NCBI RefSeq assembly: GCF_947488135.1 | Contig: NZ_CANKYW010000001.1 | Span: 310,001 to 374,000 of the forward strand | Direction of reading: 5' to 3' | Source: an uncultured Marivita sp. | Lineage (GTDB): Bacteria > Pseudomonadota > Alphaproteobacteria > Rhodobacterales > Rhodobacteraceae | Length of the DNA stretch: 64,000 bases | Position numbers and translations under genes: made by a program | Shown here: positions 44,578 to 47,785 of the stretch, in pieces | Numbering within the stretch: the stretch's first letter is position 1 | Layout: every line of letters starts with the position of its first letter | The notes under the pieces: model-generated | What the model was told of the DNA's origin: nothing | The model's database searches: none | What the model saw: the letters and a program-made list of their open reading frames with translations, nothing else

Positions 44578-46140
44578 TCACGTCACATCGCGGTAGGAGA
44601 TTTCCTTGACGTCCTTGCCCGTTTTGCCGCGCCGCACGATCAGGCGGTTGAGCGCGTGGATATAAGCCTTGGCCGACGCGACCACGGTGTCGGTATCTGC
44701 CGACTGGCCCGTGGCGATCATGCCGTTCTCTTCCAGCCGCACGGACACGGTGGCCTGCGCATCGGTGCCCTCGGTCACGGCGTGCACCTGGTAGAGTTGC
44801 AGCTTTGCCTTGTTCGGATGCAACTGCCGGATCGCCTTGAAGGTGGCATCCACCGGGCCGTCGCCCTCGCTGACGGCGGACTTGTCCTCACCGTTGATCT
44901 CCATCTCGAGCGTCGCCTCGGCCGGTCCGCCGGTGCCGCACAGCACCTTGAGGTTCACCAGTTGCAGCGCGTCGTCGCCTTCGGTCGTCGCGGTCACAAG
45001 GGCGAGGATGTCGTCGTCGAACACCTCTTTCTTGCGGTCGGCCAGATCCTTGAAGCGGACGAAGATATCCTTGAGCTGGTTATCCCCCACGTCGACGCCC
45101 AATTCCTTGAGCTTGGCGCGCAACGCGGCCCGGCCGGAATGTTTGCCAAGCGGCAGGGACGTGCCTGCGATGCCCACATCCTCGGGGCGCATGATCTCGA
45201 AGGTTTCGGAGTTTTTGAGCATCCCGTCCTGGTGGATGCCCGACTCATGCGCAAAGGCATTCTTGCCGACGATGGCCTTGTTGAACTGCACCGGAAAGCC
45301 CGACACGGTCGCCACCCGGCGTGAGATATGCATGATCTTTTTCGTATCGATGCGCGTGTGGTACGGCATAATGTCGTTGCGCACCTTGAGCGCCATCACC
45401 ACCTCTTCCAAAGCAGTGTTGCCCGCGCGTTCGCCCAGCCCATTGATCGTGCACTCGATCTGCCGCGCACCCCCGGCAACGGCAGCCAGCGCGTTGGCGG
45501 TCGCCATGCCCAGATCGTTGTGGCAATGCGTGGCGAAGACCACCTCATCCGCGCCGGGCACCGTGTCGATCAGACGGCGGATGAGATCCGCGCTTTCCAC
45601 CGGTGCGGTATAGCCCACCGTGTCGGGAATGTTGATCGTGGTCGCCCCCGCCTTGATCGCGATCTCCACGACGCGGCACAGGTAGTCCCATTCCGTGCGC
45701 GTGGCGTCCATCGGCGACCACTGCACGTTGTCACACAGGTTGCGCGCGTGGGTCACGGTCTGTTCGATGCGGTCGGCCATCTCGTCCTGCGTGAGGTTCG
45801 GAATGGCGCGGTGCAGCGGTGAGGTGCCGATGAAGGTGTGGATGCGCGGCTGGCGCGCGTGCTTTACCGCCTCCCAGCAGCGGTCAATGTCGGGCAGTTG
45901 CGCCCGGGCAAGACCGCAGATCACGGCATCCTTGGAGCGTTCCGCGATCTCACTCACGGCGCGGAAATCACCTTCGGAGGCGATGGGAAACCCGGCTTCG
46001 ATGATGTCGACGCCCATCTCGTCCAGCAATTCGGCAATCTCGAGCTTTTCGTCATGGGTCATAGTCGCGCCCGGGGATTGTTCGCCGTCGCGCAAGGTGG
46101 TGTCGAAGATGACCACCCGGTTCTTGTCAGTCTCTGTCAT
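44578..46140 (-). CDS. leuA: 2-isopropylmalate synthase
   Basis: IFDTTLRDGEQSPGATM, HCHNDLGMATANALAAVAGGARQIE. Confidence 0.97.
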   Translation of the reverse strand: MTETDKNRVVIFDTTLRDGEQSPGATMTHDEKLEIAELLDEMGVDIIEAGFPIASEGDFRAVSEIAERSKDAVICGLARAQLPDIDRCWEAVKHARQPRIHTFIGTSPLHRAIPNLTQDEMADRIEQTVTHARNLCDNVQWSPMDATRTEWDYLCRVVEIAIKAGATTINIPDTVGYTAPVESADLIRRLIDTVPGADEVVFATHCHNDLGMATANALAAVAGGARQIECTINGLGERAGNTALEEVVMALKVRNDIMPYHTRIDTKKIMHISRRVATVSGFPVQFNKAIVGKNAFAHESGIHQDGMLKNSETFEIMRPEDVGIAGTSLPLGKHSGRAALRAKLKELGVDVGDNQLKDIFVRFKDLADRKKEVFDDDILALVTATTEGDDALQLVNLKVLCGTGGPAEATLEMEINGEDKSAVSEGDGPVDATFKAIRQLHPNKAKLQLYQVHAVTEGTDAQATVSVRLEENGMIATGQSADTDTVVASAKAYIHALNRLIVRRGKTGKDVKEISYRDVT

Positions 46141-46189
46141 GTTCTGGTCTTTCTTGTCTTGTCCCTAACCGTCGGCGCGAAGCGGTTAT

Positions 46190-46227
46190 CCTCTGAGCGG
46201 TCGCGCCGGGACGGCCGCGCTCAGAGG
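46190..46227 (-). promoter_or_regulatory. Stem-loop in the leuA leader (candidate attenuator)
   Basis: CCTCTGAGCG (46190-46199) pairs with CGCTCAGAGG (46218-46227); the 5' arm overlaps the leader ORF stop codon. Confidence 0.55.
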
Positions 46228-46307
46228 CGGATTAGGAGAAGACGGCTGGCCAGCGCAAGAGGCGCGCGTGTGCGCGTGCGAATTGCGATATGGGCCAATG
46301 CGTTCAT
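46221..46307 (-). CDS. Candidate Leu-rich leader peptide upstream of leuA (28 aa)
   Basis: MNALAHIAIRTRTRAPLALASRLLLIRL*, 7 Leu in 28 residues including CTT-CTC-CTA; TATAGT 7 nt before the ATG. Confidence 0.5.
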   Translation of the reverse strand: MNALAHIAIRTRTRAPLALASRLLLIRL

Positions 46308-46342
46308 GGCTCTGACTATACAAGGCAATTCGCGAAAGAAAA

Positions 46343-46374
46343 GCCACCCGCGCACAAAAAGACGTCCGGGTGGC
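46343..46374 (-). terminator. Intrinsic terminator downstream of glyA
   Basis: Minus strand GCCACCCG-N16-CGGGTGGC followed by TTTTCTTT. Confidence 0.7.
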
Positions 46375-46418
46375 TGACGGGCATGCCGGCTTCTTTGGGC
46401 CCCAAGTACCTCGGGGGT

Positions 46419-46482
46419 TTGGGGGCAGCGCCCCCAAGCGTTTCCGTCAACGGAAACGGCACGATGCGTCGACGCATCGTGC
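46419..46482. repeat. Twin-palindrome element, copy 2, plus adjacent hairpin
   Basis: TTGGGGGC-AGC-GCCCCCAA (46419-46437), CGTTTCCGT-CA-ACGGAAACG (46439-46458), GCACGATGCGTCGACGCATCGTGC (46459-46482, perfect). Confidence 0.9.
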
Positions 46483-46489
46483 GCCCGGG

Positions 46490-47785
46490 TCAGAGGTCGG
46501 GATAGATCGGGAAGCGGGCACAAAGTGCGGCCACTTCACCGCGCACCTTATCCTCGACCGCCGCATTGCCGTCTTCGCCATTGGCGGCCAGACCGTCGAC
46601 CACCTCGATGATCCAGTCCGCGATCTGGCGGAACTCGGCTTCGCCGAAGCCGCGTGTCGTGCCCGCCGGAGAGCCAAGGCGGATGCCCGACGTCACGGTC
46701 GGCTTTTCGGGATCGAACGGCACGCCGTTCTTGTTGCAGGTGATATGCGCGCGCCCTAACGCTTTTTCGGTGGCATTGCCCTTTACGCCCTTGGGACGCA
46801 GATCGACCAGCACCACATGGGTGTCGGTGCCGTGGGTCACGGTGTCCAGACCGCCCTTGATCAGCTGATCGGACAGCGCCTGCGCGTTGCGGATGACGTT
46901 TTGCTGGTAGGTCTTGAACTCGGGGCGCAGCGCCTCGCCGAAGGCCACGGCCTTGGCGGCGATCACGTGCATGAGCGGGCCACCCTGGATGCCCGGGAAA
47001 ATGGCCGAGTTGAACTTCTTGGCCAGTGCCTCGTCATTGGTGAGGATCATGCCGCCGCGCGGTCCGCGCAGGGTTTTGTGTGTGGTCGTGGTGGCCACAT
47101 GCGCGTGCGGGAAGGGCGAGGGGTGTTCGCCCGCCGCCACCAGACCGGCGAAATGCGCCATGTCCACATGCAACCACGCGCCGACACTATCCGCGATCTC
47201 GCGCATCCGGGCAAAGTCGATCTGGCGCGGGATGGCAGAGCCGCCCGCGATGATGAGCTTGGGCTGGTGTTCGGTCGCCAGCGCCTGAACCTGGTCGTAA
47301 TCCAGCAGGTTGTCCTCTTCGCGCACGCCGTACTGGATCGCGTTGAACCATTTGCCCGACTGGTTGGGCGCGGCACCGTGTGTGAGGTGACCACCCGCGT
47401 CGAGGCTCATCCCAAGGATCGTGTCGCCCGGCTTCAGCAGGGCGGTGAACACGCCCTGGTTCGCCTGAGAACCCGAATTCGGCTGCACGTTTGCAAACTC
47501 ACATGCAAAGAGTTTGCACGCCCGTTCGATGGCGAGGTTCTCGGCCACGTCGACGAACTGACAGCCGCCGTAATAGCGGCGGCCGGGATAGCCTTCGGCG
47601 TATTTGTTGGTCATCACCGATCCCTGCGCCTCCATCACGGCGCGGCTGACGATGTTTTCCGACGCGATCAATTCGATCTCGTCGCGCTGGCGGCCCAGCT
47701 CATCGGTGATCGACTTGAAAAGGTCCGGATCGCTGTCGGCCAGCGACTTGGTGAAAAAGCCGGTTTCGCGGTGCGGGGCATTCAT
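46490..47785 (-). CDS. glyA: Serine hydroxymethyltransferase
   Basis: [51 protein letters not shown]. Confidence 0.98.

Follow-up and report, generated by a model that had tools for sequence, protein, structure and literature searches.

A leucine-codon leader and conserved RNA element upstream of leuA in Rhodobacterales and other Alphaproteobacteria

The window, a stretch of 64,000 nucleotides from an uncultured Marivita sp., carries on its reverse strand leuA, which is presumed to be the gene under control of the leader described here. Upstream of leuA lies glyA (SHMT) in the same direction, followed by an intrinsic-terminator-like hairpin that belongs to the context just upstream of the leuA promoter and lies outside the leader element. 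The features between the two genes, together with the genes themselves, were as follows.

44578..46140, reverse strand: leuA, 2-isopropylmalate synthase of the short bacterial type (NCBIfam TIGR00973, E 1.2e-199; HMGL-like and LeuA_dimer)
46148..46155, reverse strand: putative weak Shine-Dalgarno sequence (SD) of leuA, AAGAAAGA, probable from sequence
46156..46170, reverse strand: helix C 3' strand, GGUUAGGGACAAGAC, ending 15 nt before the leuA AUG and just upstream of the weak SD
46173..46180, reverse strand: helix B 3' strand, UCGCGCCG, 3' of helix A (covariation)
46190..46199, reverse strand: helix A 3' arm, CGCTCAGAGG (also given as CGCUCAGAGG; fold, covariation)
46201..46208, reverse strand: helix B 5' strand, CGGCGCGA, within the helix A loop (covariation)
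46218..46227, reverse strand: helix A 5' arm, CCTCTGAGCG (also given as CCUCUGAGCG), holding the leader stop UGA (fold, covariation)
46221..46307, reverse strand: leader ORF of 28 aa with 7 Leu, MNALAHIAIRTRTRAPLALASRLLLIRL followed by the stop (sequence, conservation)
46230..46243, reverse strand: helix C 5' strand (base stem), GUCUUCUCCUAAUC, comprising the Leu codons CUU CUC CUA and their flanks (fold, own-versus-swapped test)
46315..46320, reverse strand: -10 promoter hexamer TATAGT, spaced 7 nt from the leader ATG (sequence, conserved spacing)
46335..46374, reverse strand: intrinsic-terminator-like hairpin 3' of glyA, GCCACCCG/CGGGTGGC followed by TTTTCTTT (sequence)
about 46490, reverse strand: 3' end of glyA

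The leader ORF ends in CGT CTT CTC CTA ATC CGC CTC TGA. An ORF finder reported a longer frame of 100 aa with a TTG start (46523..46221) that encloses it; the conserved start is the ATG. The initial annotation of this locus had described a 28-aa ORF with 7 Leu and consecutive CTT CTC CTA codons, its stop inside the 5' arm of a 10-bp stem and a TATAGT box 7 nt before the ATG, and these letters were found in the window, with the UGA at 46223-46221 within the arm 46227-46218 and the hexamer at 46320-46315. Its other letters and distances also checked, apart from the 50 nt claimed between the stem and the leuA ATG (46140), which are 49 nt. The -10 box lies tightly against the glyA terminator-like hairpin, 14 nt from the hairpin end.

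The sample of leuA upstream regions comprised 17 genomes of the genus as well as 80 named contigs, most of them from Rhodobacterales. The Leu run, the in-stem TGA and the hairpin were all retained at 85 loci with the element. The reading frame was examined where a start codon was preceded at 5-9 nt by a -10-like hexamer, a rule under which 27 loci had no such pair. At all 58 testable loci the start codon after the -10 box was in frame with the stop codon in the stem, and no internal stop occurred (58/58, a count over related loci and not a probability). The spacing from -10 box to start was 7 nt in 42 of these loci, 8 nt in 11 and 6 nt in 5. This conserved spacing agrees with the transcript start at the AUG that had been suggested as possible for the window, and the transcript is probably leaderless, beginning at or next to the AUG.

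Codons -6, -5 and -4 were nearly always Leu, with third bases free at position -6, as would be expected of the leucine leader peptide that had been proposed. The stop codon kept the same stem position across the class, as TGA in 73 loci, TAG in 9 and TAA in 6, and its second base took part in 13 G-C to A-U double changes, i.e., compensating changes in the stem. Outside Rhodobacterales the second Leu was often replaced by Arg (CGA), giving Leu-Arg-Leu, so that many other Alphaproteobacteria are left with two Leu codons only, which counts against ribosome stalling. The middle and N-terminal half of the peptide drifted within the genus without codon-position bias (variable sites 9, 10 and 10), and the peptide product itself is therefore probably not the function. 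Despite the N-terminal drift, His-Ile (CATATC) at leader residues 6-7 (window about 46292-46287) was kept in 34/58 Rhodobacterales leaders, and might perhaps serve initiation or early elongation. The leaders of three loci (L147, L154 and L159) read CTTCGACTTAG(T/G)C(G/A)CCCTGGGC and had no hairpin stop codon; judging from this sequence, the group may use a different frame or mechanism.

The leader RNA folded with -64.8 kcal/mol (z = -2.3). Helix A is a perfect 10-bp stem, helix B is a pseudoknot between the loop of helix A and downstream sequence, and helix C takes up Leu codons two and three together with the codon that follows. In alignment A1, helices A and B were 95% paired and showed 20 double changes versus 2.8 in shuffles; double changes in stem A alone exceeded those in all 500 shuffles. 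Helices were further assessed by a swap test, in which the pairing of each sequence with its own partner is compared to pairing with the partners of other species. Over 61 non-redundant loci of Rhodobacterales type, own and swapped values were 25.98 and 24.43 for helix A, 20.15 and 17.98 for helix B, and 16.30 and 12.80 for helix C, an excess of about 8, 6 and 9 permutation standard deviations, respectively, and the own value was not reached in any of 5000 permutations. In a broad alphaproteobacterial set of 82 loci, helix A (z 9.7) and helix C (z 10.0) were again found; kinship inflates such tests, yet a sham upstream segment with the same relatedness stayed low (z 1.5). Helix B reached only z 1.6 in this broad set and covaries in Rhodobacterales only, and was dropped as a class-wide pseudoknot.

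The RNA element is thus solid as to its ORF and frame, its in-stem stop, its conservation, helices A and C, and, in Rhodobacterales, helix B, and a chance origin of the leader ORF and hairpin is ruled out. An alignment of leuA upstream regions, which the initial annotation had proposed as a check, showed the Leu run conserved and the stem covarying. The leader and hairpin that it had recognized were borne out, while it had missed helices B and C, the class-wide spread and the likeness to an actinobacterial element.

Covariance model R1 matched 193 of 199 genomes of the family, representing 199 genera, with one copy each. The genome of the window itself likewise held a single copy, and a model search of that genome found no further ones. 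Among 385 Alphaproteobacteria, R1 matched 42 and the broader model R2 matched 132, and wherever leuA was listed for an R1 match, the match lay immediately before the gene. By a strict pattern scan the element was found in 56/100 leuA upstream regions of other Alphaproteobacteria, compared to 1-2 in shuffled sequences and 0 in reverse complements. Because part of these sequences had already been seen when R2 and the strict scan were constructed, their counts measure spread and are not a blind test. Of the Alphaproteobacteria sampled, about one third or more have a variant before leuA. The element also precedes long-type leuA, recognized as such by sequence and not by family search, at seven loci (L284-L288, L294 and L295). 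Elsewhere in the phylum sample, outside Alphaproteobacteria, R2 gave no match at leuA; two marginal matches, one before an msrA-like ORF and one before an unrelated ORF, were judged false. In five loci from small AT-rich genomes (L164, L203, L226, L241 and L247), leuA directly followed an ilvC-like 3' end and no leader element was seen. At L309 (Sinorhizobium meliloti pSymB), a Leu4-containing ORF that ends in ASLLLLGLIRGCRVR before its stop lies about 224 nt before a long-type leuA, with TATAGG shortly before its ATG; R2 did not match it, and from its sequence it may be a divergent relative of the element.

Rfam scans matched no leader or riboswitch family, with only chance-level miRNA and sRNA matches below the cut-off, so that a known Rfam leader or riboswitch was ruled out. 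The leader of the enterobacterial leu operon (Rfam RF00512) also places a Leu-codon peptide before leuA and has an intrinsic terminator; no Rfam family matched the present leader. No alphaproteobacterial leuA leader was found in the open literature, although one may be mentioned in the closed survey of attenuators in Proteobacteria by Vitreschak et al. (2004). In Sinorhizobium meliloti, trpL/peTrpL carries Trp codons and a transcription attenuator that gives a small RNA (PMC7298713); like the present element, it has a leaderless leader ORF that precedes a gene for amino-acid synthesis in an alphaproteobacterium, and no structural relation is claimed. LeuL1, upstream of leuA in Streptomyces lividans (MRFGLLLLSCRGEGL), has a leaderless transcript and no intrinsic terminator (PMC8079986), but belongs to another phylum, and its transcription start was measured whereas the start here is predicted.

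The closest likeness was to the LEU element of actinobacterial leuA, described as a leader ORF with a Leu run, a pseudoknot, a base stem between Leu codons and SD and an alternative hairpin that shares this stem, with the mechanism left open (Seliverstov et al., 2005; PMC1262725). Common to both are the Leu-run leader ORF, the lack of an obvious terminator, the hairpin and pseudoknot, and the Leu-codon base stem. They further share the core LLLLSC/CTYCTTCTTAGCTGCC, read in L304 (Nonomuraea) and L305 (Microbacterium), and in these two loci a TAxxxT box stands 6-7 nt ahead of the ATG. In the actinobacterial copies the core is CUYCUUCUUAGCUGCC, and the Leu codons form a base stem that lies 5-8 nt ahead of leuA: L304 reads GGG CTC CTT CTT AGC TGC C, with the base stem GCTCCTT/GAGGAGC 8 nt before leuA, and L305 reads GGC CTG CTT CTT CTT AGC TGC C, with GCTTCTTCTT/GAGAAGAAGC 5 nt before leuA. 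The 16-nt core shared by alphaproteobacterial and actinobacterial copies was matched by eye. On 18.5 kb of sequence, R2 matched L305 (E 0.0012) and L304 (E 0.0017) with weak scores of 16-17 bits, and the remaining four records in the same 18.5 kb (three actinobacterial, one from S. meliloti) were unmatched. There are also differences: the alphaproteobacterial leader has its stop codon within the 5' arm of helix A, beyond which actinobacterial leaders continue (LLLLSCRDESSD before the stop), many Alphaproteobacteria have Leu-Arg-Leu, and helix C lies beside and not on the SD in most Rhodobacterales. On this comparison, the alphaproteobacterial element would work like a LEU element and may be one.

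Helix C overlapped the best SD in 26/57 loci outside Rhodobacterales versus 4/38 within, where it ended a median of 19 nt before the AUG. Since it so rarely overlaps the best SD in Rhodobacterales and ends about 19 nt off, direct SD masking is not general there. Predictions with ViennaRNA, which are free of pseudoknots, gave no gain in accessibility of the leuA ribosome-binding site (RBS) from blocking the Leu run beyond that from a control block: accessibility rose from 0.55 to 0.59 in Rhodobacterales (control 0.58) and from 0.41 to 0.48 in the broad set (control 0.48). Occlusion of the RBS as judged by accessibility was therefore null in both sets, and for Rhodobacterales we make no claim of direct SD masking.

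Taken together, the Leu-rich leader, the conserved fold, its class-wide position at leuA and the actinobacterial likeness suggest that the leader is probably a built-in leucine gauge of the cell. We consider, with a probability of roughly 55%, that the element is an alphaproteobacterial form of the LEU element which ties leuA to leucine supply and is relieved by stalling on the Leu codons. Transcription would start at or next to the leader AUG, so that ribosomes would enter at the 5' terminus of the growing transcript. With charged tRNA-Leu plentiful, the ribosome would pass the Leu codons, stop at the UGA in helix A and leave, upon which helices A and B would fold as a pseudoknot closed by the base helix C. 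Helix C would then pair the Leu codons with a segment at the leuA RBS or immediately before it and hold leuA translation down, a repression that Rho polarity may back. When leucine is short, the ribosome would stall on the Leu codons; because these form one strand of the closing helix, the stalled ribosome would open helix C, and leuA would be translated. We infer, short of proof, that the controlled step is probably translation of leuA, possibly with Rho. A more tentative proposal is that the alphaproteobacterial and actinobacterial leuA leaders form one old family, in which the Leu codons serve both as sensor and as the strand that closes the fold over the ribosome-binding region, and a stalled ribosome would itself lift the repression, with need of neither terminator, antiterminator nor protein.

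Attenuation by Rho would place the decision elsewhere: the leader ribosome would determine Rho loading, with helices A-C hiding or exposing a Rho site, and translation of leuA would stay unmasked. The missing U-run after helices A and B, the position of helix C off the leuA SD in most Rhodobacterales and the null RBS accessibility test all agree with this. However, in other Alphaproteobacteria where helix C is clear, it extends as far as the SD in close to half of the cases, and even within Rhodobacterales it lies 2-8 nt upstream of the next AUG in L010, L042-L044 and L101; we regard this reading as a less likely, though live, rival. Attenuation of the trp/leu operon type, with an intrinsic terminator, would account for a leader peptide rich in the amino acid of the pathway and for helices that look alternative to each other. 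The initial annotation had cautioned that no U-run follows the stem, rightly so, as TTTT occurred within 6 nt of helix A in 0/61 loci and T-runs in the 60 nt after helix A reached at most 4. With none of the 61 loci carrying a U-run behind the stem, the hairpin is not an intrinsic terminator, and such a terminator was ruled out; Rfam leader families were likewise unmatched, and classical attenuation is very improbable.

In Actinobacteria, mutations of the leucine codons were reported to be without influence on regulation or to act unlike classical attenuation (cited in PMC1262725), results that count against stalling. It was from such mutants that the authors of 2005 held classical attenuation unlikely (PMC1262725), and binding of the pseudoknot by a regulatory protein, as proposed for the LEU element, would leave the leader ORF secondary. 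The strict conservation of hairpin and pseudoknot fits this proposal, but the frame, the distance from promoter to start and the identity of the stop are conserved in the manner of a translated ORF, the Leu codons vary at third positions, and the protein candidate of 2005 (ML1624 orthologs) was reported absent outside Actinobacteria, making protein binding a doubtful explanation here. A leaderless leader with a stable hairpin could also give a stable small RNA, and for a leader transcript that works mainly in trans, as small RNA or peptide, rnTrpL/peTrpL of Sinorhizobium meliloti offers a precedent (PMC7298713). Yet the N-terminal half of the leader drifts within the genus without codon-position bias, and the element keeps its place immediately before leuA or its operon, so that action mainly in trans has very little probability. 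Relief of helix C by stalling on the Leu codons remains the reading that we prefer.

This putative RNA control element, present in nearly every sampled genus of the large family and widely in Alphaproteobacteria, has no Rfam match. On the preferred reading, it would carry the LEU element, for which the 2005 study had settled on no mechanism, into a class with tractable laboratory strains. The covariation of the stop codon and of the base stem yields sharp predictions that can be tested by mutation.

In some Rhodobacterales, the gene next to the leader was not leuA. In L010, L016, L042, L043 and L060, leader and leuA are separated by a cupin gene of 118 aa (Pfam Cupin_2, E 6.2e-13 for the L010 copy), and in four of these (L010, L042, L043 and L060) an AUG at the start of the cupin ORF follows 2-8 nt after the end of helix C. 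Cupin-like sequence was also seen directly upstream of leuA in L009, L015, L114 and L117.
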